DNA of 62,176 nucleotides. Source: Hellea sp. (GTDB taxonomy: Bacteria > Pseudomonadota > Alphaproteobacteria > Caulobacterales > Maricaulaceae). Shown piece after piece: positions 17,223-53,910 of the stretch. The position numbers and the translations under genes are program-made. The stretch covers positions 1-62,176 of the forward strand of contig JABDKG010000073.1 of assembly GCA_013002305.1 (NCBI GenBank), in the 5' to 3' direction. Position 1 is the stretch's first letter. Each line of letters starts with the position of its first letter. The notes under the pieces are model-generated. The model was not told the DNA's origin, ran no database searches, and saw only the letters and a list, made by a program, of their open reading frames with translations.

Positions 17223-18641
17223 ATGATTATTGGGCTAGCGATATCTAAGACTATACAAGCCGATATTTTGTCGGTTTGGGATCAATGGCCGCCTATGGCT
17301 CAAATAGCATTACCGATCAGTCTCGGCCTGTTCGCTCTCATTATTATTGCCCTGATCATTCGGCGCAAGAGACGTCGCGAAGAGGATCGCTCTGTGGCAA
17401 ATCTGATTGTCGATCAAAATCAGAATTCACTGCCGGACGCGGATCTTACCGATCCTATTCAAACGGCGAAGAAAGCGGAAGAAATCCAGCCTGATCAATC
17501 TTCCCGCGCAACACCCAAAGCCGTTCAAGCTATATTACCTGAAATGGCAGCCATCAGCCGCGCCGCCGAACTCATAAAGAAAACTGCGCCATCTGATGAG
17601 ATGCGTCAACTCGGAAGCACAATCTCGCTGAAGACACAGAAAGTGCAGCGCGTTTTAAACACAATTCAATTCATCACGGCGCCGGATAATTCTCAGACCG
17701 ACAGCAAAGCCGAAACGCTGAATTTTCGAGCCTTATTGACCAAACTTATCCATAAGTGGAAAAGCGAATTTCAATCGCCCGGCTTAACCTTCACCGCCCA
17801 TATTGATGAGCAACTACCCAAGCGCTTATTTTTGCATCGCCAGTCTCTGATCGCTATTTTGGACAATCTGTTACATGCGGCATCCGAGAGTACGAAAACC
17901 GGTCGAGTCCATTTGCATGTCACAGGCACGCCGGGCGAGAATTTTGACTGGACCCTGTCCCTCATCATCGCTGATACAGGCACCGGTTTTACAGACATTT
18001 TTCTCGATTCACTGGAGGAAGGTTTTGCAAATCCGGAAAATTATTCGGCAAGTGAAGTGTTAATTGCCGGATCTCGAAAAATTGCGAATCTTCACAATTA
18101 TCTCATGACTACGCAATCTAAACTGGGACGCGGAACCGAGGTCCGGATCACCCTACCGACACGCGCCGCCATGGTAATGCGCGACGACAAGCAAGAACAA
18201 CGCCCAGCCGTCCGCAGTAGCGCCCCTTTGAGCCCCTTATCGAACAAGCGGGTTCTAATCATCGAGGATGATATTTCCAGCCAGGAAGTTCTCCAAACAT
18301 TTCTTGAGCCCGAAGGCTGTGACATTGATTGTATTGCCGATGGTCAGCACGCGTTGAAAACGCTGCGCCAGTCTCATTATGATCTTATATTGATGGATAT
18401 TCGGATGCCGGTTCTGGACGGAATCGAGACGACGAAATCGATCCGGAGTTCCGGCGAAAAATTCAGTAATATACCCATCATCGCGATCACTGCCGACACG
18501 GCACCGGAAACCAATGCCAAATGTATGATGGCCGGGATAGATCTGTTTTTGACTAAACCTGTTAGCGCAAAAGGCCTATTTGACGGGACTCGATTTGTTA
18601 TGGAACTTTCAGCCGATCTGCGGAAGCAGAAATCAAGCTAA
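17223..18641 (+). CDS. Hybrid sensor histidine kinase-like protein with C-terminal receiver, DHp degenerate
   Basis: A 472-aa protein: one N-terminal membrane helix (residues 20-45), a polar linker, a helical region (residues 105-150), an HATPase_c domain (residues 165-320) and a receiver domain (residues 344-465). The ATPase has an N-box-like DNLLHAASE and a G1 box (IADTGTGF). The receiver has the acidic pair (IIEDD), phospho-acceptor Asp392 in LILMDIRMPVLDG, and a late Thr/Lys (ITADTAPE, FLTKPVSA). In the helical region where the phospho-acceptor histidine should be, I see no H followed by E/D. It may therefore signal without autophosphorylation or be phosphorylated by another kinase. It resembles Caulobacterales hybrid kinases but no specific pathway is named. 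Confidence 0.82.
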   Translation: MIIGLAISKTIQADILSVWDQWPPMAQIALPISLGLFALIIIALIIRRKRRREEDRSVANLIVDQNQNSLPDADLTDPIQTAKKAEEIQPDQSSRATPKAVQAILPEMAAISRAAELIKKTAPSDEMRQLGSTISLKTQKVQRVLNTIQFITAPDNSQTDSKAETLNFRALLTKLIHKWKSEFQSPGLTFTAHIDEQLPKRLFLHRQSLIAILDNLLHAASESTKTGRVHLHVTGTPGENFDWTLSLIIADTGTGFTDIFLDSLEEGFANPENYSASEVLIAGSRKIANLHNYLMTTQSKLGRGTEVRITLPTRAAMVMRDDKQEQRPAVRSSAPLSPLSNKRVLIIEDDISSQEVLQTFLEPEGCDIDCIADGQHALKTLRQSHYDLILMDIRMPVLDGIETTKSIRSSGEKFSNIPIIAITADTAPETNAKCMMAGIDLFLTKPVSAKGLFDGTRFVMELSADLRKQKSS

Positions 18642-18645
18642 GCGG

Positions 18646-21600
18646 CTAAGGAGTTGCAAAACTTTTCGGGTTAACATTTTGCGTTCCCACAATTTCTTGG
18701 GTCGGCGAAATTCTTTTGAGTAGACCTCTAGCCGTATCTTGATCAAATTTGATACGAAGTTTGAAGTAAAGACCATCGCGCTTATACTCGGCCGCTTCAA
18801 AGTCGTCGTCTTTGAACCCTTCGACATTGTAACCTGCACTGATCCAAACATCGTCAATCGGCGAAAATCCGACGGACGGACCGAAACTATATTCAAAACT
18901 ATCGCCATTAGTTAAAATAGAGCCGTGCAAACCCAGATCAATTCTTTCGGTCACATCAAAGCGGGTCTCGGCTCCAACCAAATGAGTGAAATCACTGAAG
19001 GATTGACCGGCGATTTCTTCGCTAACATATTTTGCGCCATAGTGGGCAGAAAGCTGCCAATTATCATCGATCATTGTGTTGGCGGCCAAATTATTGACAA
19101 TTTTGGTCCGGGTTTGTCCCAGCTCATTTGTCTCATGGCTGACGTCGAGTCGATCAAAGACGACAGTCTCTTCACCGCGCGGGCGCCAAGCTAGGCCAAC
19201 GCGTCCGTCTATCCGTTCATGATCGCCGCGTACGACATTATTTGGGTCTGTCCATACTGAGCGGACAGATGCAGCAAGAGAAATTTCCTCCGATAGTTCG
19301 CGGGCGGCGCCGACGCTGGCGATCCAAGTGTCAGACGCGCTCGACATACGGGTTTCAAGCCGACCGGAAACAGTCGTATTATCATTATTATAGGCCATGC
19401 CGACATAGGCGGCATTGAAGTTCTGATTAGTTTCCAGCGGAGAAATTGGGCCGTCGGCAGCAACATCGATATACTCAATATCTTCATCCAATACCTTGCG
19501 GCTGGTTACCCCGATCGAAGCGCTGACATTTTTGTCCAGACGTACTTGCTGATCCAGTCCAAAGGTTCCGCCAAGGCGCCGTCCACTATCATTGGTAACG
19601 AGATCAGAGCTGGCATTGATGCTGGTTCCGTCCCACGGCGCAAGATTAACACCGATCACCGTATTTTGAGATTCGTTCAAAGCACCATCGAGAATCTCAT
19701 GACGCAAGGTCACAGACGCTTTTGAACCGATGGTTTTGTTGACGCCCACAATGGTGCGCTGCGGATAATTTGTAACTTCGTCTTTTCCGTTTAGCGGTTG
19801 TTCATGGCTAATCTGGAATGTCGCGCCCAGATCCGGCACGCGCAGGCTTGCGCTCGCTACGGCTAGAAGTGACTCGCGCTCTGTCCCATTACTAAGGTCA
19901 TCGCGGCTGGCCCGTAGACCGCCGCCAAAGGTCAGTTTGGAACCATTGTGATTAAACATCACTTCGGCCGTTTCCCGAGAATCGCCTGTGTTCAGATTGT
20001 CCTGATGATAAGCGGCGGCATCAACGGTTTGGCTACCGCGTTTCCCGGTTTCTTCATTTTCGAACTGATTGACCCGGACTTTGGCTTCGACACCGTAGCG
20101 GCGGAAACCAGCCGTATTTGAGTTTATCTGGCCAACACCATAGCCGGCTTCTTCTTCGCGGTAATAGGCATGAGCGCTGACTTTTTCTGATGTGTGAATA
20201 ATTTCTGCGAGTTTGGCATCTGAGGTCGTTGATCCCTGCCCGGCAATTTTATTCTCTGTGATCGCATATTCGGCGCGCGCTTCAATATTATCATTGATCT
20301 GCGCAACCACATCAATACCGACCATATTCGATTCAGCGCCCGCCGTTGAGCCTGACCCCTCTTGGTGGACAAAGCTGGATCCGACGCGAATATCGCCATG
20401 CGTAACCTGAACCCGGCCACCGGCTGTTATGTTGCGCTCAGCGTCTTCGGCTGTTTCATAATCAACCACGATAACGTTGGGATTAAACTGGGCGTCGCTA
20501 ACATCAACCGGCAGACGGAAAATGATCTGACCCGTCAGATAATCAAGCGTATAGTCCAGATAGCGAATGAGCTCTTTACGCTCCAGGATCACATCCGGGC
20601 GATTGCGATCGCGGGTTTCGATCACGATGGTTTCGGACTGCGCCAGAATATTGCGGTGGCTTAGCTGGTAAGTCCCGCTGGTCCCATCAGCCGGAATTTC
20701 ATCTTTGCCAAAACCTTGATTGGTTTCAGCGACGAAACCTTGAGCTTGGATTGTTTCATCAACATATTCCGCCTTTAGGCCGGAAAAATGACGGTTATAA
20801 GAGGTTAAGCGGCCTTCTGTGATATCCGTATTAAAATCACCAAACAGCGCATAAGCTGACTTTTTCTCAAGCTTAACGTAGAGCGGATAGCGGCTCGACG
20901 TTTCAAGATATTGATGCGAGCGATCGCCATATAGCGAATAGTAGGCGTTGGGATCAATTTCAGCGGCAAAGTCGCCATCACGGCCACCGCGGCGTTTATC
21001 GGTGTCGACCTGCAGAGTCAGAAGCCAATTGCCTTTGATCAGGCCTTTAGCGAAAAAGGCAACGCGGCCGTCATTGAATACATCCGAATCTTTGTTGGAC
21101 AGGCTGATGGCTTTGTCGCGAACCGTTTCATATCCAAGCGATCCCTCAGCCAAACCGACAACAATCCAGTCGCGCTGCTCAGGCTCGAGATAGAGATAAA
21201 GCGGAACCTGACGACCCGTGTCCAAGGTCACAGTCACGGTAACTTTACCGGTCTGCAGCGTTGGCTCAAGCCGTACAATCGCAATTCCGTTATCTCCGAC
21301 TTTAATGTCGTCGCGTGCAGATAGTGGCGCGATCAGATCATTGGCTTGCTCGGTCAATTCGCGTTCACCGGTCTGATCGTAAAGACTGTAAGGCGCGCTG
21401 ACATCGATCGTGACAATGCGGCCTTTGTGAACCGAGCGTCCGGCCTCATCTTCAAGGCGGATCGCCAGCTCCGGCACGGTGCGTCCGTCAGCAACAAGTT
21501 TTGATTTACCCGGCACGGCCCCGGCGCGCGCGACATTGGTCGCAAAGTAGATTTCTTCACTGAGTGTAGCCAGGGTTTGTCCGTTGGCACCTGTGACTAT

Positions 21601-23754
21601 GGCGTCAAAGACGTTCTTACCGTCGCGAATATCAACCCCTTTGAACCGGGTAAGACCAGTCATCCGGTCAGCACTCATCAGGCCTTGATCGCGATTGGTT
21701 TTTGGAACGGGTCGGCCATTTAGCAAAAGTTCAACTGAACCGCCAGCAGGGTGTTTAATACCGATATTGACAGATGAACGATCCGGCGTTCTATCAGACA
21801 GCGGGTATACCCACGCCGGGTCGCTGGATTGCGTATCCAGCCATGTCTGGTCGAAATTCTTATAGTCCGTGGCTTCGACAAATTCTTGAACCTCAGCTTC
21901 GACGACGGCTTCGCCGGTCTGTTTGAGATAGAAATTCGCGCGCCAGATACCGCCGCCTTGAATGTCGACAAATTTCGAATGCGCGCTGCCTGCATAGCGG
22001 CTGTTTTCTTCGCAGACCATGACTTCATAACCGGCCGGCAGAGTTTCTTCATCAACTTGCACGACATGCGTGCCTTCATTGATGCCTTCAAAGTGATAAA
22101 GACCGTCGGGATCACTGACAGCATAAGCGCCGGTTTCCATATATAGACGAACGCCTTCAACACCGGTTCCGCGCTCAATTTTACGAACCCAATCTTCATC
22201 ACCATCACAGGAATTTTCTGAGATACGGCCAATGATAGTGCTGTGTGAGCGTAGTAGATCTTCGCGAAGCGTAATACCGGCGCGGGCAATATTTGATAGA
22301 GGGGCGCCTGCATCAGTTCTAACGATGGCCTCATTAATAGCCTCGCCGAGATGGGCGCCTGGGCCAATTTGAAGGGCATAGTTAAGTGAAACCGATTGGC
22401 CGGGTTCAACCGAACTGATTGGATAGGTTAACAGGCGGGAATCATCTGAAACGACCGGGTCTTCGATGTGAAGTCCATCCAGTACAGACGTGCCTTCGAG
22501 GTAACGAAATCCAACTGGCAATGTATCCTGTAAATTAATCGGAGCTGTAGCAATTCCCTGATTTTGGATCGTCACCGTATAATTTATATAGTCGCCAATG
22601 TCGCCATAAGAACGGTCAGCTGTTTTTTGCAAGACCAGTTCTGCATCCGGATCCAGCGGAATATCAAAACGGATATATCCGATATCCGTCATTTCAAATG
22701 GCAAACCATAAGATCCATCAATGATGAAATAGCCCGCGCCTGTATTGGCGTTGATGACGTCTGGCTGCAATGCGGATGCGAAGTCAAAGCCTTCCGGCGG
22801 AACCACTTCGACAACATAATTACCAGCGCTTACATGCGGGAAAGAAAACCCGCCATCATCCTGAATATAGGTCAGGCCAGCTTCATCTGTCGTAAATTCA
22901 CCGCTCGTAACGATAGATGGAAAATCAGAAAATCCGTCAATGCCATACACGTCGGCAAAGTCGAGCGTATTAGCATCGAGCAGTGACACTGTCGCGCCGT
23001 TAACTGGCTCACCTGTTATGGAATTAAAGACCATATTATTTGGGTTAACGGCGGCCGTATCAACGACAACCCGGATTTCTGCACCGCTTGTCGACGAGTT
23101 TGGATCATCGATTACATCTTCATAGGTCGCCGTTAATTCGTCATTATTAAACGCGGTCATAACCGCGTCGTGATGGGCCGTCGTCTTGTCTGTTGACTGC
23201 ATATAAGCCCAAAATTCGCCCGTATCCGGTCCGGATTCGTAAAGGCGCATGGCAATTAGATCACCGTTTTCGGCTTCGACCGTAATAATGACTGTCTCAA
23301 TGGCGCTGGAGTCCCTATTGGCACCGCTATTGGTCACCCGGACAAACATCAGCTCACCGGACAGGTAAGACATGGTCGGTATCAGGGGTACTTCACCCGT
23401 CAGATTTAGCAATGTGCCCGTGTTTAGAGGTTCGCCAGTTGAGATAAACGGGCCGTCTATATTTCCTGTTGGACTATACTCAGAGCCATTGAGCGTGACC
23501 AGATTTGGGTTCGGCGCATTTGGCGAGTATCTAAAGAATTCGATTGTGGGATTTGGATCGACAGGTGAAACAATCGTAAAGACAACTTCATTGGTTTGAA
23601 CTGTCGTTTCGACTTCCCCTACCCGGTAGCTGACTTCCGCAATATTGAGAACTTCAACACCGAAATTGTCGGCATGCGCAACCCCGGAGCTCAGGGCAAG
23701 CAGGCCCGTTGCTATCGCAAGATGCGAATATTTATGTTTCGAATCCAAACTCAT
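18646..23754 (-). CDS. Giant surface/outer-membrane protein with DUF11, SdrD-B-like and beta-barrel regions
   Basis: A 1702-aa exported protein with signal peptide SHLAIATGLLALSSGVAHA. Approximate order: an N-terminal DUF11-associated beta region (30-360), a DUF11 domain (about 370-495, LVLQKTADRSYGDIGDYINYT), an SdrD-B-like Ig domain (about 500-590, VEGVRLYMETGAYAVSDPDGLYHFEG), and further Ig-like modules (to about 870). Next is a conserved segment (about 890-1105) with SETIVIETRDRNRPDV and LDYLTGQIIFRLPVDV, then a long alternating beta region (about 1110-1680) that looks like an outer-membrane barrel. It is likely anchored in the outer membrane and exposes the Ig modules. The last 20 residues extend past the final strand. 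It is encoded 79 bases after the small DUF11 gene on the same strand. The function is unknown. Confidence 0.8.
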   Translation of the reverse strand: MSLDSKHKYSHLAIATGLLALSSGVAHADNFGVEVLNIAEVSYRVGEVETTVQTNEVVFTIVSPVDPNPTIEFFRYSPNAPNPNLVTLNGSEYSPTGNIDGPFISTGEPLNTGTLLNLTGEVPLIPTMSYLSGELMFVRVTNSGANRDSSAIETVIITVEAENGDLIAMRLYESGPDTGEFWAYMQSTDKTTAHHDAVMTAFNNDELTATYEDVIDDPNSSTSGAEIRVVVDTAAVNPNNMVFNSITGEPVNGATVSLLDANTLDFADVYGIDGFSDFPSIVTSGEFTTDEAGLTYIQDDGGFSFPHVSAGNYVVEVVPPEGFDFASALQPDVINANTGAGYFIIDGSYGLPFEMTDIGYIRFDIPLDPDAELVLQKTADRSYGDIGDYINYTVTIQNQGIATAPINLQDTLPVGFRYLEGTSVLDGLHIEDPVVSDDSRLLTYPISSVEPGQSVSLNYALQIGPGAHLGEAINEAIVRTDAGAPLSNIARAGITLREDLLRSHSTIIGRISENSCDGDEDWVRKIERGTGVEGVRLYMETGAYAVSDPDGLYHFEGINEGTHVVQVDEETLPAGYEVMVCEENSRYAGSAHSKFVDIQGGGIWRANFYLKQTGEAVVEAEVQEFVEATDYKNFDQTWLDTQSSDPAWVYPLSDRTPDRSSVNIGIKHPAGGSVELLLNGRPVPKTNRDQGLMSADRMTGLTRFKGVDIRDGKNVFDAIVTGANGQTLATLSEEIYFATNVARAGAVPGKSKLVADGRTVPELAIRLEDEAGRSVHKGRIVTIDVSAPYSLYDQTGERELTEQANDLIAPLSARDDIKVGDNGIAIVRLEPTLQTGKVTVTVTLDTGRQVPLYLYLEPEQRDWIVVGLAEGSLGYETVRDKAISLSNKDSDVFNDGRVAFFAKGLIKGNWLLTLQVDTDKRRGGRDGDFAAEIDPNAYYSLYGDRSHQYLETSSRYPLYVKLEKKSAYALFGDFNTDITEGRLTSYNRHFSGLKAEYVDETIQAQGFVAETNQGFGKDEIPADGTSGTYQLSHRNILAQSETIVIETRDRNRPDVILERKELIRYLDYTLDYLTGQIIFRLPVDVSDAQFNPNVIVVDYETAEDAERNITAGGRVQVTHGDIRVGSSFVHQEGSGSTAGAESNMVGIDVVAQINDNIEARAEYAITENKIAGQGSTTSDAKLAEIIHTSEKVSAHAYYREEEAGYGVGQINSNTAGFRRYGVEAKVRVNQFENEETGKRGSQTVDAAAYHQDNLNTGDSRETAEVMFNHNGSKLTFGGGLRASRDDLSNGTERESLLAVASASLRVPDLGATFQISHEQPLNGKDEVTNYPQRTIVGVNKTIGSKASVTLRHEILDGALNESQNTVIGVNLAPWDGTSINASSDLVTNDSGRRLGGTFGLDQQVRLDKNVSASIGVTSRKVLDEDIEYIDVAADGPISPLETNQNFNAAYVGMAYNNDNTTVSGRLETRMSSASDTWIASVGAARELSEEISLAASVRSVWTDPNNVVRGDHERIDGRVGLAWRPRGEETVVFDRLDVSHETNELGQTRTKIVNNLAANTMIDDNWQLSAHYGAKYVSEEIAGQSFSDFTHLVGAETRFDVTERIDLGLHGSILTNGDSFEYSFGPSVGFSPIDDVWISAGYNVEGFKDDDFEAAEYKRDGLYFKLRIKFDQDTARGLLKRISPTQEIVGTQNVNPKSFATP

Positions 23755-23789
23755 TCACCCAGCCCAGGCGATCCCATACCGCCCTAGAA

Positions 23790-23811
23790 TCCCGCGGGCT
23801 AGCCCGCGGGA
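23790..23811. repeat. Perfect 22-bp GC-rich palindrome between the two DUF11 genes
   Basis: The core CCCGCGGGCTAGCCCGCGGG (23791-23810) is flanked by T and A, which extends the symmetry to 22 bp. It lies between the small DUF11 gene stop and the giant gene start on the minus strand. There is no U-tract on that strand after the stem. It could act as a partial terminator or an mRNA stabiliser that sets the ratio of the two proteins, or as a protein-binding palindrome. Confidence 0.6.
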
Positions 23812-23833
23812 AAATCATCTATTTTTTGTATTT

Positions 23834-24925
23834 TTATTTGACCAGTGCACGAATTGTGATGGTACCAACTGTTGGCGTGGAAGGTGTCCCGCTGGCCAAA
23901 GTGGCTGTATCAAAGACGATGTCACAAGGTGTACCGATTGTCGCGCAATCATGGTTTGCAGCTGGCTCAGAACTGAATGTTCCGCCAGTAAAACCAGAAC
24001 TGGTAACAGCAATAAAGGTGAGATCTGTTGCCAACGTATCGCTTATAACGATATCGGTTGCATCTTCACTACCCGTGTTTTCAGCTGTAATGACATATTC
24101 GACACAGGCGCCTGGAATAGCGTAACCGCTAGTTGGTGTGCCTGGAATAGTCGCACAGCCCGCACCGTCTTGAGAGAATACATCCACGGCTTTAACGGCT
24201 GTAAGTTCGGCCGTTGAAACAACGTAGAACGCTGTCGCAGATTCGTTACCGTCAGAAACAGTACCGCTATCGCCTGTTGACGCTTCAGCAGACGCTGGAT
24301 CATCAGCAAATACGTTTTCGGCGGCGCCTAGGATAGCGTTTCCGTCTGTATCTTCAGTAACAACATTGCCGCTTGTATCAAGCGTCGTTGCAACGAGAGA
24401 CAGGATCTCACGCTCATCATCATTGGCAGAAGTCGGAATATCTGCACGAATTTGAACGGTGATACTTTGATCGGCCGTCAGTTCAGGATAGTTAGATCCT
24501 GTAAATTCAATATAGACACCGGCATTGAGCGGATCTTCATACCAGACTACATATGGGCTGGCATCGAAACCAACCAGCGGAGCGTTAACGGCTTCGTCAA
24601 CAATATTGAAATCATATTGCTGAGCGTCATTACCTTCATTGGTTAGTGTATATGTCAAAATACGCTGATTTTCACCGGGTGTAACGCTCGTATCGACAGT
24701 CGAATCGACACTCAAGTCAATTTTACGGTCAACAGTGAACTCGGTTTCGTTACCGACATTATTGATGACCGGTTGCGGTGTGTCGTTCACGTCATAGTTC
24801 AGTGTGAATGTGTTTTGGACATTTGTCCCGGCCGAAGTCCCACCTGCGTGGGCACTTAGGGCCGTGAAAGCAGTTAAGGCAGAAGCGCCCAGAAGTGCTT
24901 TCAAGTAAGTAGTAGTGCTTTTCAT
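23834..24925 (-). CDS. Exported DUF11-domain surface protein
   Basis: A 363-aa protein with a clear signal peptide (MKSTTTYLKALLGASALTAFTALSAHA, mature start GGTSAG). The mature part is all beta-sandwich-like: an N-terminal domain with NTFTLNYDVNDTPQPVINNVGNETEFTVDRKIDLSV and a C-terminal DUF11 domain with VEYVITAENTGSEDATDIVISDTL. It is acidic, Thr/Ser-rich and low in Lys, as expected for a secreted or surface protein. It has only three cysteine pairs' worth of Cys near the C-terminus (ACVEY, DCATIGTPCDIV). I use the ATG at 24925, which has GGGAA upstream, instead of an upstream in-frame start. It is first in a likely two-gene unit with the giant protein. Confidence 0.8.
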   Translation of the reverse strand: MKSTTTYLKALLGASALTAFTALSAHAGGTSAGTNVQNTFTLNYDVNDTPQPVINNVGNETEFTVDRKIDLSVDSTVDTSVTPGENQRILTYTLTNEGNDAQQYDFNIVDEAVNAPLVGFDASPYVVWYEDPLNAGVYIEFTGSNYPELTADQSITVQIRADIPTSANDDEREILSLVATTLDTSGNVVTEDTDGNAILGAAENVFADDPASAEASTGDSGTVSDGNESATAFYVVSTAELTAVKAVDVFSQDGAGCATIPGTPTSGYAIPGACVEYVITAENTGSEDATDIVISDTLATDLTFIAVTSSGFTGGTFSSEPAANHDCATIGTPCDIVFDTATLASGTPSTPTVGTITIRALVK

Positions 24926-25140
24926 TTCCCATTCCCTTTGTATTTTTAGGAAACGGGAAGTTAAAAGATAATAATTAAATTTATTCTGAGAAAGACGGTT
25001 AACAAAGCCTCTTTTATCTATTAACAAAACCTAACGGGACAGCGATGTTTTTCAATGTTTTCAATAGGATAATCGGTTGTATTTTTTGAAAAATTTACGC
25101 ATGATAAAGGTTTTCAGTAGACCGTAATTTCAGATAGTTT

Positions 25141-25171
25141 TAGGAAGCTCGGCAAGTCCGGCGAATTCCTA
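25141..25171 (-). terminator. Possible weak terminator hairpin at the infB stop
   Basis: Outer arms TAGGAA (25141-25146) and TTCCTA (25166-25171) pair, with a short inner CGG/CCG stem. The distal arm overlaps the infB stop codon. No good U-tract follows on the minus strand, so this is a weak call. Confidence 0.25.
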
Positions 25172-27685
25172 ATCGAGTTTGCGATCAACATACTCGACCG
25201 TGAAGCACTCTATTTGATCGCCTTTTCGTAGGTCTTCATATTTCTCAAAAGCCATACCACATTCCATGCCGGCCTGAACCTTCTCGACTTCGTCCTTAAA
25301 GCGCTTGAGCGTTGATAACATGCCTTCATGAATGACAACATTTTCGCGCAATAGGCGGACACCGCAAGCCCGTTCAACCCGGCCTTCCGTGACCCGGCAA
25401 CCGGCAACTTTACCGACTTTGGAAATATTAAAGACTTCGAGAATTTCGGCGTATCCGATAAAGGTTTCGCGGCGTTCCGGCTCGAGCATACCTTGCAGCA
25501 CACCTTTAACATCGTCGAGCAGATCATAAATGATCGAATAATAACGAATTTCAACACCTTCGCGCTCGGCCAAATCTTTGGCTTGACGGTTCGGGCGGAC
25601 ATTAAATGCTAAAATCGGCGCTTCTGATGATTTGGCCAAAAGAACGTCGGATTCGCTGATCGCCCCGACGGCGCCGTGGATAACTCGGGCTTTAACCTCG
25701 TCATTACCGGCCCCTTCAACGGAGGACTTGATCGCTTCAACAGAGCCCTGAACGTCGGCTTTGACCAAAACAGGCATTTCATTGACGACCTTGCCTTTAA
25801 GCTTGGCCATCATATGCTCCATCGAAGCAATAGCGGTCGGTTTGCTGGACGCATCGTCCTTGGCCTTCTGGGCACGATATTCTGTAATTTCACGCGCTTT
25901 GGCTTCGCTTTCGACAACCGCAAATGGCTCGCCCGGTGACGGTGCGCCGTCAAACCCCATGACAGCGACGGGAACAGACGGCCCGGCCGCTTTTAGCTGA
26001 GCATTGCGCTCATCCATCATGGCTTTGACTTTGCCCCAATACTGGCCTGCGACGATAATGTCTCCGCGCTTTAAGGTCCCGCGTTTGACCAATAGCGTTG
26101 CAACCGGTCCCCGGCCTTTTTCGACTTTAGACTCAATTACCAATCCTTCGGCATTGCGATCTGGATTGGATTTAAGATCCATCAATTCTGCCTGAAGTGA
26201 AATGGCATCCGCCAAATCATCCAGACCGGTTTTTTTAAGGGCCGACACTGGAACTGATTGAGTTTCACCGGACATAGATTCAGTGATCACTTCATATTGT
26301 AACAGTTCAGTTTCAATTTTACGCGCATCCGCTTCATAAGTGTCCATCTTGTTGACGGCGACAATGATAGGCGCGTTCGCAGCTCTGGCGTGCGAAATCG
26401 ATTCGATGGTTTGCGGTTTGACGCCATCATCGGCGGCCACGACCAGTACAACAATGTCAACAGCTTCGGCGCCGCGGGAGCGCATGGCTGAAAACGCCGC
26501 ATGGCCTGGCGTATCCAGAACGGTAATTTTATCGCCGGATTTTAGCTTAAGCTGATAGGCGCCAATGTGCTGGGTAATTCCGCCCGCTTCATCGGCCGCA
26601 ACATCTGCTGAGCGCAGCGCGTCCAAAAGTGACGTCTTGCCGTGATCAACATGGCCCATAATCGCGATAACAGGTGCCCGCGGTTTTAGATTGCCCTCAT
26701 CTTCCGGTTCGGTGTCGAGGAAATCATCTTCAACATCGGCATCGGCAACGCGTTTGACATTGTGACCAAAATCTTCGGCGATCAGCTGGGCTGTATCAGC
26801 GTCGAGAACATCGTTGACCGTTGCCATTGAGCCTTGTTTCATCAAATATTTGACGACGTCAGTGGTTCTCTCGGCCATCCGGTTGGCAAGATCACCAACC
26901 GTAATCGCTTCGGGGATGGTTACCTCACGGGCGACTTTGACTTTTTCGCCGCCCTGGCCTTTTTGTCTTTCTTTTTCGCGTTCGCGTGCCCGGCGCATTG
27001 AGGCCAGAGAGCGTTGACGTTCATCATCACCGGATAAAGCACTTACAATCGTGAGCTTGCCTTTACGGCGGCGATCTGTGCTCTTGGACGGACTGCTTTT
27101 TGACTTAGGTCCGCCGCCGCTACGCTGTTTCTTAATTCGGCCCCCGGCACGTTCCAGAGCCGTCTGATCATCAACTTGCTCCCCTTCCGACAAGATTTTC
27201 TGCGCTGCGGTTGGCGCTCTGCGGGCGGCGTCGGCTTCTTGACGCTTTCGCTCTTCTTCCTCTTCGGCGAGGCGGCGTTTTTCGGTTTCCTCTTCCGCTT
27301 TTCTTTTGGCGTCCAAGGCTTTGCGCTCTTCATCCATCCGGCGCTGACGCTCATCCTCTTCAGCTTTGCGAACAGCATCGCGTTTGGATTGCTCAGCCGC
27401 AGCCGAATTCAAAGCTTCTTGGCGCTTCAAATATTCCGATTTGGACAATCCAAGTTTACGGGCCTGCTCAGCAACCTCATCGACTGGGGCTTCTGGCTTG
27501 GGTTTGATTGACGGGGACGCCGTCGGTTTGTCCGACTTACCCGGAACGCCAATAACCCTGCGTTTCTTCTTCTCAACCACCACGGATTTCGACCGCCCAC
27601 CCGAAAAATTCTGCCGGACGGTACCCGAACCGGATTTCAAGGAAAGCGGCTTACGGGCCGGTTTTTTATCGTTTGTATCGCTCAT
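25169..27685 (-). CDS. infB: Translation initiation factor IF-2
   Basis: An 838-aa GTPase that brings initiator tRNA to the 30S subunit and promotes subunit joining. The N-terminal 250 residues are highly charged, with a long Arg/Glu/Lys coiled-coil (residues about 95-150, [19 protein letters not shown]). The IF2-N domain follows ([31 protein letters not shown]). The G domain starts near residue 345 with [15 protein letters not shown]3 is [12 protein letters not shown] and G4 is NKMD. Domains II-IV run to the end (VEYVDRKLD). It is the last gene of the rimP-nusA-ylxR-infB operon, 44 bases after ylxR. rbfA and truB, often downstream, are not present here. Confidence 0.97.
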
Positions 27686-27729
27686 CTCGTCTCACTTATC
27701 GCAGTCTTCTAACGGCAAACCTATGACTT

Positions 27730-28446
27730 TCAACCTTTATCGCCAGTCTGGTGCAAAGAATTATTGCCGCTCTCATGGGGTTTGTCTTCCCAGCTATCAG
27801 GGATCAGCGCGCAAAAACCGGCAAGCCGGCCGATCGCCTGATCAAAATTTTTCGCCATCCGGCCTTTTTTTATGGCCGCATGAACAATGTCTTCGCGGTT
27901 TAGAGCCGCGCCGAGTTCAGCCGATGTAAAACATCCCAAAACCGGCGTTTCTTTAAATCCAAGCTCCCGCGACACAGCTTTGGTCAGAACCCGGATTTTA
28001 CCGCGGCCACCGGCGGCGCCATTTGACGCTTCAATCCGCCAAGCCAGGGGTTCTGCTTGGCTGGCCGATTTAACTTGATCAAATCCCATATGTATATGAC
28101 CGGCCTTAAGCGCCATAGTCATTAAGGACAGCACGCGCCGTTTCAGCAATTGTTCCGTTTGGTCGACCAATGTGTCATCAACAGAAATATTGGCTTTAAA
28201 ACCGCGCTTAAATCCGCCGGATTTAATGGCCGTTTCAAGCGACGATCGATCCGCTTTCACCCAGACGCCGCGTCCGGGCAGTTTTTCCGCTATGTCCGGC
28301 ACGACCTGTCCGTCAGGCGCTTCTACAAAACGGATCATCTGGCTTTTCAGATGGACCTGTCCAGAAGACACGCACTGACGCTCAGGGCCTTTATGACCCC
28401 TTTTATCGACGAATGTCTCGGATGATATTGCGGTGTCAGTTACCAA
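27730..28446 (-). CDS. ylxR: YlxR-family RNA-binding protein with L7Ae-like domain
   Basis: A 238-aa protein with an N-terminal YlxR (DUF448) domain (residues 15-90: RQCVSSGQVHLKSQMIRFVEAPDGQVVPDIAEKLPGRGVWVKADRSSL). A C-terminal L7Ae-like ribosomal fold follows (residues about 115-215: KRRVLSLMTMALKAGHIHMGFDQVKSA). YlxR proteins bind RNA and have been linked to RNase P and to transcription in some bacteria. The alphaproteobacterial form with the extra L7Ae-like part is standard at this locus. The canonical GR(G/S)W is present as GRGVWV. It lies three bases after nusA, so translation is probably coupled. Confidence 0.92.
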   Translation of the reverse strand: MVTDTAISSETFVDKRGHKGPERQCVSSGQVHLKSQMIRFVEAPDGQVVPDIAEKLPGRGVWVKADRSSLETAIKSGGFKRGFKANISVDDTLVDQTEQLLKRRVLSLMTMALKAGHIHMGFDQVKSASQAEPLAWRIEASNGAAGGRGKIRVLTKAVSRELGFKETPVLGCFTSAELGAALNREDIVHAAIKKGRMAKNFDQAIGRLAGFCALIPDSWEDKPHESGNNSLHQTGDKG

Positions 28447-28449
28447 ATC

Positions 28450-30093
28450 TTAGCTCTCAAACACGCTGGCAGCTGTATATTCTTCTTCGGCTGGCGTTTC
28501 GGTGGTTACTTCGACTTCTTCTTCCTCAAGCTCGGCTTCGTCGATCCATCCCGCTTTGACGCGGGCTTTCATGATCATATCGGTCGCGGCTGTCACAGAA
28601 AGACCAAAGCCTTCCAGAATGCCGTCCTCATGGACCTTTTCACCGGCCTTATTGACTTCAGTGTAGCCGCGAAGATCATCCGGGATCAGACCCGCGACAT
28701 CTTCAACGGTTTTCACGTCGTTTTCACCAAAGGCAACCGCCATAGGCAGCGTCACACCTTCGATCTCAAGCACGTCGTCTTTGACGCCGGCCGCTTTACG
28801 TTTCTCGTCTTGCTCTTGCGCTTGGCGCTCGAGGAATTCACGGGCACGAGTCTGAAGCTCAACCGCTGTATCTTCGTCAAATCCTTCTATCGCGGTGATT
28901 TCGTCTTGAGCGACATAACCCACTTCTTCGAGGGTTTGGAAACCTTCAGAAACCAAGAGCTGAGCAATCATTTCGTCCACATCCAGCGCTTCCATAAACA
29001 GGGCTGAGCGTTCCTGGAATTCTTTCTGGCGACGCTCGGATTCCTGATCTTCCGTCATAATATCGATTGCCCAGCCGGAAAGCTGTGACGCGAGGCGAAC
29101 ATTTTGCCCGCGTCGGCCAATCGCCAGTGATAGCTGCTCATCAGGGACAACAACCTCAATACGGTTATCATCTTCGTCGATCACGACCTTGGTTACTTCG
29201 GCAGGCTGCAGGGCATTGACAATGAACGCCGCCGCATCATCGGTCCACGGAATAATATCGATCCGCTCGCCTTGCAGCTCGTTTACAACCGCCTGTACGC
29301 GCGAACCGCGCATACCGACACAAGCGCCGACAGGGTCGATAGACCCGTCATTAGAATAGACGGCGATCTTGGCGCGGCTCCCAGGGTCACGGGCAACAGA
29401 AACAATCTGGATGACACCCTCATAAACTTCCGGCACTTCTTGGGCAAAGAGCTGGGCCATAAATTGCGGATGGGCGCGTGATAGGAAAATCTGGCTTCCG
29501 CGCGGTTCTTGGCGAACCTCGAGTATATAGGCGCGAATACGATCGCCGCCCTTGACATTTTCGCGCGGGAGCGCTTCTTCACGGCGAATAACCCCTTCGG
29601 CGCGGCCTAGATCGACAATGATATGGCCATATTCAACGCGCTTAACAATACCGTTGATGATCTCGCCGACCCGATCTTTATATTCTTCATACTGACGTTC
29701 GCGTTCGGCTTCGCGGACTTTTTGGACGATCACTTGTTTTGCCATTTGGCTTTGAACCCGGCCAAACTCAATCGGCGGCAACTGGGTGACGAATTCATAT
29801 CCGATTTCGGCATCAGGATTATCAAGCTTGGCGGATCCAAGGTCAATTTCAGTGGACTCATTCTCGACTTCTTCCACAACGGTCACAACCCGGGTCAAAT
29901 CCATTTCGCCGGTCACCGGATCAAGCTTGGCCCGGATATCCAGTTCACTGCCATAACGCAGACGCGCTGCCTTCTGGATGGCTTCTTCAATCGCCCCCAA
30001 AACAATGGATTTATCAATCGATTTTTCCTGTGCGACCGCATTGGCGATTTGCAAAAGTTCCAGCTTATTGGCACTGATTCCCGCTGTAGACAT
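28450..30093 (-). CDS. nusA: Transcription termination/antitermination factor NusA
   Basis: A 547-aa NusA. It has the N-terminal RNA-polymerase-binding domain (residues 1-135), an S1 domain (about 137-200, GEIINGIVKRVEYGHIIVDLGRAEGVIRREE), KH1 and KH2 (about 230-350, including GACVGMRGSRVQAVVNELQGERIDIIPW and LAIGRRGQNVRLASQL), and two C-terminal acidic helix-hairpin-helix repeats (about 365-500). NusA modulates pausing, termination and rRNA antitermination. The very acidic C-terminal tail (ELEEEEVEVTTETPAEEE) is usual in alphaproteobacteria. It follows rimP by 17 bases and is in the same operon. Confidence 0.97.
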   Translation of the reverse strand: MSTAGISANKLELLQIANAVAQEKSIDKSIVLGAIEEAIQKAARLRYGSELDIRAKLDPVTGEMDLTRVVTVVEEVENESTEIDLGSAKLDNPDAEIGYEFVTQLPPIEFGRVQSQMAKQVIVQKVREAERERQYEEYKDRVGEIINGIVKRVEYGHIIVDLGRAEGVIRREEALPRENVKGGDRIRAYILEVRQEPRGSQIFLSRAHPQFMAQLFAQEVPEVYEGVIQIVSVARDPGSRAKIAVYSNDGSIDPVGACVGMRGSRVQAVVNELQGERIDIIPWTDDAAAFIVNALQPAEVTKVVIDEDDNRIEVVVPDEQLSLAIGRRGQNVRLASQLSGWAIDIMTEDQESERRQKEFQERSALFMEALDVDEMIAQLLVSEGFQTLEEVGYVAQDEITAIEGFDEDTAVELQTRAREFLERQAQEQDEKRKAAGVKDDVLEIEGVTLPMAVAFGENDVKTVEDVAGLIPDDLRGYTEVNKAGEKVHEDGILEGFGLSVTAATDMIMKARVKAGWIDEAELEEEEVEVTTETPAEEEYTAASVFES

Positions 30094-52488: not shown

Positions 52489-53910
52489 ATGAGCTCAAAA
52501 TTAGATCTGAAATCATTTGCAATCGCGACGCTCGTGCCTATTGTCATGATGCTGGTCGCGATGTGGATCAAGCCGCTATGGCGCGACGAATTTTTCAGTC
52601 TTTATTATTCCGAGCCCGGCCTCTCGCTACCCGATCTGGCGGAAAATCGCTGGGTCATCGACGCGCACCCGCCGCTTCACAATATATTCCTTTGGGTCTG
52701 GAGCCATATTTCCGAACATGTGTTCTGGCAAAAAGCGCTTTCGCTGGTATTTTTGGGCATAGGAGCGTTTGCGTGTTTTCAGCTCTCCCCCACAAGCCGC
52801 CGGCGTACGCTTTATATTTTTGGACTGACCTGTCTGGGATCCTATTGGGTGATCTATTTCGCCACAGAAATCCGGCCCTATATTTTAAACTTCACCCTCA
52901 GCACGGTTTTGACTCTGGCGGCCGTCCGGCTGATCGAAGACGAACAAGCGAATTGGCCACTATGGACGATTTGGATCGTAACCGGCGCGCTCTTGTCCCT
53001 GACCCATTATTTTGGCGCGCTCTGGTTTGCCTGTCTTGGGTTGATGGTCGGTATTCACCATCTGACGCGCGGCCAAAATAGTCGATTTTTTCGCATCGGG
53101 AGCCTGACCGTGTTGGGTCTGGTGCCTGCCCTGCTTTGGATTAAATTTGCTTTGACGCAAATCGATCTGTCAAACGTCACCTCGGATCTGACGGCGCTGC
53201 AGAAACTTCAAGGTGGTCTCCATCAATTTTTGCGCGGGCTTCTGGTCAAAACGTTTGGCTCCAACCCTCTAATTACGATCCTCGGCTTTGGCGGCATATT
53301 GGCGGCTATATTCGGGAGAAATTATCGCAATCGGGTCCTGTTAGGGGCCGCCGGTCTGATGCTGCTGATTGCGCTGGTTCTGCATATAGCTCTGGCGGAT
53401 ATGATCAAGGAGCGTGCATTTATCTCGATGATGCCAGCGGTGCTTTATATTTTCGCGGACCATATCGCAGATAAGGAGTCTTCATGGATGAAATATATCC
53501 CGCTCGCAGCTGTGATCATGCCGTTTCTGTTCATCCCGGAATATTTCAAAAACAAGGAACGGATCGATGAGTTTCAAGCCGCGCTCAACAGCTATGGGCC
53601 GGCTTGCGAAACCGCGGCGATCCCGGTCTTGCTAAGACCTGATCCGCCGCGCGCATTTTACGAGTTTGCCGCGCAGAAAATTGTCAGCCCGGACGGAAAA
53701 CGGCAATTAGCCCCATTGGATATTTCACAAACTTTTGAGCTGGCGTCCGACTGTCCGGTGGTGGCGGTCAGCGTCTTACTTCCCAAAAACAGCGCAGCGA
53801 TTATTGACCTGGGCAATACACATCTCATGAGGCTCGGTCAGGATCCGTCCAAACTGGAGGTCCGCCGATTTGGCAAAGGCCGAAATATTTTCTGGGTGCG
53901 CCGTCCTTAA
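52489..53910 (+). CDS. GT-C fold glycosyltransferase (ArnT/PMT-like membrane protein)
   Basis: A 473-aa multi-pass membrane protein with about ten to eleven helices. The first large loop contains the acidic motif PLWRDEFFSLYYSEPG and then DAHPPLHNIFLW, the D-E and HPPL pattern of GT39/ArnT-type polyprenyl-phosphate sugar transferases. Such proteins transfer a sugar from a lipid carrier to protein or lipid on the periplasmic side. The C-terminal 150 residues form a soluble periplasmic domain (EYFKNKERIDEFQAALNSYGPACETAAIPVLLRPDPPRAFYEF). The substrate and acceptor are not defined by sequence. It is divergent from the sulfide operon and shares its intergenic region. Confidence 0.82.
   Translation: MSSKLDLKSFAIATLVPIVMMLVAMWIKPLWRDEFFSLYYSEPGLSLPDLAENRWVIDAHPPLHNIFLWVWSHISEHVFWQKALSLVFLGIGAFACFQLSPTSRRRTLYIFGLTCLGSYWVIYFATEIRPYILNFTLSTVLTLAAVRLIEDEQANWPLWTIWIVTGALLSLTHYFGALWFACLGLMVGIHHLTRGQNSRFFRIGSLTVLGLVPALLWIKFALTQIDLSNVTSDLTALQKLQGGLHQFLRGLLVKTFGSNPLITILGFGGILAAIFGRNYRNRVLLGAAGLMLLIALVLHIALADMIKERAFISMMPAVLYIFADHIADKESSWMKYIPLAAVIMPFLFIPEYFKNKERIDEFQAALNSYGPACETAAIPVLLRPDPPRAFYEFAAQKIVSPDGKRQLAPLDISQTFELASDCPVVAVSVLLPKNSAAIIDLGNTHLMRLGQDPSKLEVRRFGKGRNIFWVRRP

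Follow-up and report, generated by a model that had tools for sequence, protein, structure and literature searches.

A conserved DUF11 locus of Hellea and related genera that may encode the shaft and base of a donor-strand surface fibre

The P0002 and P0001 genes of Hellea sp. probably code for the shaft (P0002) and the base (P0001) of a surface fibre of the donor-strand type that is built from DUF11 (CLIPPER) domains, a reading to which we assign a probability of roughly 0.6. More tentatively, the fibre may represent a separate class of Gram-negative pilus that polymerizes by itself with no dedicated chaperone or classical usher, contains split-isopeptide junctions, stands on a base with a barrel of ~38 strands and displays interchangeable adhesins. 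The locus itself is a real and conserved multi-gene surface system, and its parts fit a donor-strand fibre. The argument starts from features read in the sequences, namely the truncation of the acceptor domains, the hairpin relation (clearest for P0001 and the distant relatives), residue conservation, gene linkage, gene co-occurrence and a stem-loop; from these we infer polymerization, cross-linking, passage through the barrel as the export route and the roles of the tip and small proteins. The first-pass annotation had described a two-gene system, a view that is not borne out, as at least four kinds of component with a common donor/acceptor logic are found.

In the window (the whole 62,176-nucleotide stretch of DNA that was analysed), the P0001 and P0002 genes are adjacent on the minus strand. 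The features of the locus are as follows.

18646-23754, minus strand: P0001 open reading frame, 1702 aa, putative base subunit with an outer-membrane barrel
23671..23754, minus strand: P0001 signal peptide, residues 1-28, assigned by eye
23557..23670, minus strand: P0001 N-terminal donor hairpin, residues 29-66, containing Asn37; matches the closing hairpin of DUF11 repeats in profile alignment
22261..22647, minus strand: P0001 complete DUF11/CLIPPER domain with Lys377-Asp410-Asn474, from Pfam and the 9IFR match
18742..21081, minus strand: P0001 predicted barrel region, residues 892-1671, from AlphaFold2 and Foldseek
23790..23811, minus strand: perfect 22-nt palindrome, RNA stem-loop ~21-22 nt after the P0002 stop codon
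23834..24925, minus strand: P0002 open reading frame, putative major fibre subunit, 363 aa from the ATG at 24925
24845..24925, minus strand: P0002 signal peptide, residues 1-27, assigned by eye with cleavage between AHA and GG; AlphaFold2 helix at residues 5-19
24722..24844, minus strand: P0002 N-terminal donor hairpin, residues 28-68, GTxVxNTFTLxY ... TxFTVDR, with Asn38
24221..24721, minus strand: P0002 first Ig-like domain, residues 69-235, from AlphaFold2 strands
23837..24220, minus strand: P0002 C-terminal acceptor DUF11 domain, residues 236-363, from Pfam DUF11; Lys245 and Asp296 invariant

The longest P0002 frame (23834-25027, minus strand, 397 aa) opens with a TTG, the start used by the first-pass annotation. 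Because the position equivalent to the ATG at 24925 opens the close orthologues, this ATG is probably the true start (363 aa), and the TTG at 25027 lies too early. Pfam detects DUF11 in both proteins (35.1 bits in P0001 and 31.4 bits in P0002, against a cut-off of 24.6), and signal peptides are read by eye in both. The adjacent same-strand DUF11 pair claimed earlier is confirmed, the smaller protein being predicted to be exported. The P0002 signal region (AHA followed by GG, by eye) lacks a lipobox cysteine. In P0001, SpaA scores slightly above its Pfam cut-off, and SdrD_B and CarboxypepD_reg score below theirs; the Pfam scan of P0001 and P0002 contains no S-layer domain. PHROGs gave no match, and sequence searches of the PDB returned none for P0001 alone at E 1 or for the P0002 profile at E 10. 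Upstream of P0002 lie infB, a YlxR-type gene and nusA. A hybrid histidine kinase gene (17223-18641) is located downstream of P0001 and convergent with it; it was rejected as a fixed partner and is not considered part of the core because similar genes occur within 3.5 kb downstream in only 14 of 69 loci with room. Elsewhere in the window (52489-53910), a 473-aa open reading frame has no Pfam match at E 0.001.

The pair is conserved well beyond the window. P0001 is matched in 18 of 61 genomes (its own and relatives), with 16 orthologues at E 0, one match confined to the barrel region (G006) and one divergent relative (G017). P0002 is present in 15 of the 16 genomes with a P0001 orthologue; the one exception, G008, has a P0001 gene truncated at the contig end. 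For comparison of gene order, 76 loci from named genomes were drawn from the best 80 of 88 matches, and they represent Hellea, Robiginitomaculum, Algimonas, Litorimonas, Henriciella, Hirschia, Marinicaulis, Ponticaulis, Parvularculaceae and others. The named relatives put the window with Hellea and its kin in the Caulobacterales. In all 67 of these loci that have room for it, a same-strand P0002 gene precedes P0001; the remaining nine have at most about 250 nt upstream. One locus (L110) has two open reading frames between P0002 and P0001. The co-conservation of the two genes, which the first-pass annotation had left to be checked, is thus found wherever there is room, and both the P0002–P0001 linkage and the conservation of the stem-loop between the genes are far above chance. 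In a class-wide draw, the barrel region is matched in 10 of 289 genomes, the own genome included, and mostly in part. A scan of all open reading frames also found four distant modules in alphaproteobacterial genomes (one in G117, two in G302 and one in G228), each of which groups a small gene, a P0002-like gene and a P0001-like gene on one strand.

The DUF11 fold ends in a hairpin as its final element (tNtAtvt...sNtv). The C-terminal domain of P0002 ends one strand earlier, and the chain stops at the last acceptor strand, GTITIRALVK, which forms the chain end in the AlphaFold2 model (strand 352-362). The N-termini of P0002 and P0001 each contain a hairpin of the kind that is missing from the open C-terminal domains. 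When the profile of the P0001 N-terminus is compared with independent DUF11 repeats, it aligns to their positions 74-106 out of 119 (none of 100 column shuffles as good; hhalign probability 48%), and it also aligns to the N-terminus of P0002 (again none of 100; hhalign probability 74%). Direct comparison of the Hellea-group P0002 hairpin with DUF11 repeats was not significant, with 30 of 100 shuffles as good. At the distant loci, all nine N-termini tested (five P0002-like and four P0001-like) align to the final hairpin with a profile start at 75-79, seven of them with at most 1 of 100 shuffles as good; these N-termini were picked by a motif pattern, which favours a match, and a tenth that lacked the motif was dropped. 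An incomplete Ig-like fold whose missing element is carried at an N-terminus is supported through P0001 and the distant relatives, but not by the Hellea-group P0002 hairpin taken alone.

Completion of the open domains by a donor hairpin was tested on sequence profiles by appending one to the other. Addition of the P0001 hairpin raised the DUF11-repeat match of the P0002 C-terminal domain from 36.4 to 45.3 and that of the small protein (described below) from 20.2 to 25.8, each with 0 of 60 shuffles as good. Appending the P0002 hairpin to the C-terminal domain brought no improvement in the profile comparison (59 of 60 shuffles as good). The complete-domain positive control also gave no gain (56 of 60), so the appended-hairpin test has low power and only its positive results count. 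An HMM of DUF11 repeats taken from the giant relatives failed to reveal the circular permutation in Hellea-group P0002, with 3 of 55 sequences scoring above all 20 shuffles. Pfam chimeras were compared with a single shuffle each and are indicative only: the P0002 hairpin on P0002 changed DUF7619 from 22.1 to 28.4 bits (shuffle 21.9) and DUF11 from 32.7 to 31.0 bits (shuffle 29.3), and the DUF11 score of the small protein rose from 16.1 to 17.9 with the P0002 hairpin or 18.4 with the P0001 hairpin (shuffle 13.0). A donor score of at least 5 is reached by 16 of 55 P0002 sequences with the P0001 profile and by 12 of 67 P0001 sequences with the P0002 profile, compared with 5 and 1, respectively, of 1334 background open reading frames. 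Small proteins reach it in 2 of 51 cases with the P0001 profile.

These parts suggest an assembly mechanism, which the first-pass annotation had found undescribed for the locus. P0002 would be the repeating unit. Because its C-terminal domain lacks the last hairpin and its mature N-terminus is such a hairpin, P0002 molecules may clip together head to tail, the N-terminal hairpin of one filling the C-terminal DUF11 domain of its neighbour and recreating a tandem DUF11 array. P0001 would form the base: its N-terminal hairpin would plug the first P0002 subunit, its Ig-like modules would serve as a stem, and its C-terminal barrel would anchor the structure in the outer membrane. The tips would be separately encoded adhesins with variable N-terminal domains, an open C-terminal domain and no recognizable donor. 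The fibre-like surface system proposed at first pass is supported by this donor/acceptor logic together with the conserved pair.

The split of the fold coincides with a split of its potential chemistry. The solved DUF11 structure is the isopeptide domain CLIPPER, with a Lys715-Asp748-Asn806 triad (9IFR); the portion of the report consulted gives the bond as intramolecular and notes that some DUF11 domains have no bond (PMC12617251). The P0001 family profile matches the 9IFR chain through its DUF11 region (E 1.3e-5). In P0001, the triad residues K377, D410 and N474 are kept in 70, 71 and 72 of 73 sequences, respectively, and the donor residue N37 in 68 of 70. In P0002, for which residue counts cover 55 of 68 sequences, the acceptor residues K245 and D296 are invariant (55/55), and the donor hairpin conserves N38 (54/55) and F40, L42 and Y44 (55/55 each). 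A complete Lys-Asp-Asn fold in one segment is found in P0001 only, as the P0002 C-terminal domain ends before the Asn strand. Since DUF11 can form Lys-Asn isopeptides with a catalytic Asp and P0002 divides this triad between acceptor and donor, the P0002 junctions are predicted to become covalent Lys245-Asn38 cross-links between neighbouring subunits. Each shaft junction would then pair a tag at the N-terminus with a catcher at the C-terminus, and the chain would be covalent from end to end and stapled to the base barrel. Conservation of the Lys, Asp and Asn residues could instead serve folding.

Candidate tip proteins are encoded near the locus in other genomes. These accessory genes combine P_proprotein, GEVED, CshA_NR2 or weak F5/8C domains with a C-terminal DUF11-like domain that ends in ...FRARIK. 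By a profile of the C-terminal domain (each hit at E 7.3e-36 or better), a tip gene is present in 16 of 61 genomes, comprising 15 of the 16 with a P0001 orthologue and 1 of the 45 others (Fisher p 3.6e-12, relatedness not corrected). The acceptor domain ends within 3 aa of the C-terminus in all 33 tip proteins compared, seven of which built the profile. Lys is kept in 30 and Asp in 32 of the 33. None of the 33 tips, 29 of which have an uncut and four a cut N-terminus, reaches a donor score of 5, and the donor motif pattern is present in one; a donor in the tips may have been missed because the donor profiles recognize the other family weakly. The tip candidate of the own genome is a 1321-aa protein with GEVED and DUF11 (L209:4257-8222). 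One genome rated 100% complete (G044) has a tip-like gene (L214:6372-7520), and P0001 was not detected in it.

A third gene, which encodes an exported protein of ~158 aa, accompanies 50 of the 76 loci; it faces the opposite direction in nine and is not upstream of P0001 in four. Some Henriciella and Hyphomonas loci have no small gene nearby. The small protein and the P0002 C-terminal domain align over their full lengths and stop at the same strand. It has no equivalent of the catalytic Asp, and its Lys position is variable. As an open domain devoid of the reactive residues, it may cap non-covalently or else shield the donor hairpin reversibly. In the own genome, this gene lies on another contig (G000:C92:114744-115211), where it adjoins rbfA, truB and pnp. 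The usual gene order is nusA-infB-rbfA-truB-pnp. Here, the order is broken after infB (window 25169-30093; G000:C92, L177:6745-11251), with the fibre genes behind infB and rbfA-truB-pnp behind the small gene, and the neighbourhoods in the window and in G000:C92 look end-swapped. The genes on either side are consistent with a rearrangement that parted the small gene from P0002 and infB from rbfA. The small gene, P0002 and P0001 are all retained despite the split.

The C-terminal region of P0001 is predicted to form a very large outer-membrane barrel. Residues 640-1702 were modelled using AlphaFold2 with an alignment of 60 of 71 sequences, and the model has a mean pLDDT of 75.9 and a pTM of 0.64, with low confidence around residues 878-945, before the first strands. 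By our count from the printed secondary structure, the barrel region consists of ~6 strands, an inserted all-beta stretch (1014-1079) and then ~32 strands, about 38 predicted strands in total. Foldseek returned 154 PDB matches at E 0.001, of which 50 are listed; 47 of the 50 are outer-membrane barrels or complexes containing them, including SlpA, SprA, MtrB, TonB receptors, FimD and LptD, and the exceptions are ApoB100 (twice) and ROS1. The best match is SlpA (8ae1, E 6.4e-9), at 10% identity and a TM-score of about 0.2. As the TM-scores do not exceed 0.29 among the 50 matches listed, the strand number and the closure of the barrel are predictions. The outer-membrane anchor suggested at first pass is supported by the long run of C-terminal strands and by PDB matches that, among those listed, are nearly all such barrels (TM at most 0.29); the structure prediction that had been proposed as a check did not return the alternative outcome of no outer-membrane barrel, since strands are predicted, again with TM-scores of at most 0.29. 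The barrel may also act as the export channel suggested there.

The same parts can be read in other ways. The P0001 barrel could belong to a secretion route resembling the type IX secretion system (T9SS), in which the barrel recognizes the open C-terminal DUF11 domain as a sorting signal, with P0002, the small protein and the adhesins each a cargo in its own right instead of a part of one fibre. T9SS cargo proteins carry C-terminal Ig-like domains; the tips combine variable N-termini with one conserved C-terminal Ig-like domain, their genes co-occur with P0001, and SprA is among the best listed PDB matches of the barrel. However, Pfam gives P0001 no SprA match at E 1, and a sorting signal leaves unexplained both the N-terminal hairpins of P0002 and P0001 and the division of Lys and Asp from Asn. 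We regard this route as unlikely, although it is the strongest of the competing explanations.

Closure of the P0002 C-terminal domain by the hairpin of the same chain, which would yield a circularly permuted monomer carried by P0001 and no fibre, is less probable still. One P0002 chain does hold every part of a complete domain, but the first Ig-like domain sits between hairpin and acceptor, and the AlphaFold2 model does not place the hairpin (pLDDT 69-83) and contains no confident docking in cis, as judged from the printed strands and pLDDT values. Moreover, P0001 has a donor without a terminal open domain, and the tips and small proteins have acceptors without a recognizable donor, an arrangement that cis closure does not account for. 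A layer-like coat, also raised in the first-pass annotation, would be a two-dimensional P0002 lattice for which P0001 is the tether, comparable to the SlpA barrel of Deinococcus. SlpA is indeed the top Foldseek match of the barrel, but given its low identity and TM-score, the lack of an S-layer domain in the Pfam scan and donor/acceptor parts that predict a linear chain, we consider a coat very improbable. The best PDB matches of the P0002 model are integrins and other Ig-like proteins, and they include a streptococcal adhesin domain (2wza) with isopeptide bonds in its title; the 50 matches listed contain neither 9IFR nor any assembled fibre.

Under the preferred fibre reading, the intergenic stem-loop may provide for an excess of shaft subunits over the base. 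The perfect palindrome reported at first pass is confirmed as 22 nt at 23790-23811. Across the loci, the helix has a median of 12 bp. The folding z-score is -2 or lower in 60 of 63 P0002–P0001 intergenic stretches (the window and 62 of the 67 loci, five having been left out because of their spacing or length), compared with 40 of 202 control intergenic stretches (Mann-Whitney p 5e-27, without correction for relatedness). Of 62 loci, 40 have a perfect stem of at least 7; the folding-energy comparison is the more sensitive of the two. The sequences and loops of the stem-loops vary among loci, so it is the RNA form that is conserved. A role as an operator or plain terminator is disfavoured as the main one, given that loops and sequence vary while the position and the stem are retained, and that 10 of 63 have a following T run. 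The stem-loop probably contributes to differential expression within the operon, by which P0002 would be set in excess over P0001.

The proposed fibre resembles several known systems in part. Chaperone-usher pili (type 1 and P) likewise have an acceptor-only tip adhesin, shaft subunits with both donor and acceptor and an outer-membrane barrel, but in the Hellea locus the donor is a hairpin and the base donor is fused to the barrel. The own draft genome (97% complete) contains no match to PapD_N (PF00345) or to the usher family (PF00577), for both of which the Escherichia coli control was positive, and Pfam detects no usher in P0001 at E 1. Relative to DUF11/CLIPPER itself, the fold family and triad are the same and intact in P0001, whereas in P0002 the triad is split between the chain ends. 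SpyTag/SpyCatcher, engineered from a CnaB-type domain, is an isopeptide domain divided between a strand and its partner, which react once docked; the P0002 junction would be a natural, polymerizing version with the DUF11 fold.

Donor-strand fibres outside the chaperone-usher family offer further parallels. As described in the part of PMC9715654 consulted, the archaeal threads of Saci_0406 are donor-strand fibres assembled head to tail, for which an isopeptide between subunits is proposed and a putative cap protein is described, and the authors suspect an assembly distinct from that of chaperone-usher pili (PMC9715654). The threads differ in that their bond joins Asn57 to the N-terminal Asp24 amine two subunits on, in their pilin-like fold and in the lack of an outer membrane (PMC9715654). 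PDB sequence searches with the locus proteins listed no thread, an entry that the searched copy may lack. Type V pili of Bacteroidota are also donor-strand pili outside the chaperone-usher family; their pilins are described in the same excerpt as lipidated precursors that are trimmed by a protease (PMC9715654), unlike P0002 with its lipobox-free signal region. T9SS SprA is a very large single-chain barrel like the one predicted for P0001, which has no SprA match in Pfam at E 1. In the open-access library searched, the literature on DUF11, donor strands and isopeptides in Gram-negative bacteria yielded no account of such a system, and the consulted part of a T11SS paper mentions DUF11 in passing only (PMC12282271).

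If the proposal is true, Gram-negative bacteria, for which few kinds of adhesive fibre are known, would gain one more, and the system would suggest how marine Caulobacterales may attach to surfaces. DUF11, reported as an intramolecular cross-link in the consulted part of PMC12617251, would gain a chain-joining role, and the junction would be a natural template for covalent protein polymers. The building of a fibre across the outer membrane without a chaperone and usher also becomes testable in cultured species such as Hellea balneolensis. Hellea balneolensis DSM 19091 and Litorimonas cladophorae each have the P0002–P0001 pair.

A giant relative is encoded in the same genome. Its open frame of 5443 aa contains tandem DUF11 domains and ends in VGKF (L066:2184-18458, L178, G000:C63); a terminal Phe is typical of outer-membrane barrel proteins. 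It has the start of the barrel region in common with P0001, and we therefore propose that the genome carries two adhesin forms, one with its length set by a single chain and one assembled from subunits. Comparable DUF11-repeat giants, with open frames of about 3900-6900 aa, occur in related genomes. In some species, P0001 extends by ~200 aa on the C-terminal side of the barrel (L055:6583-12375, L058:3770-9532).
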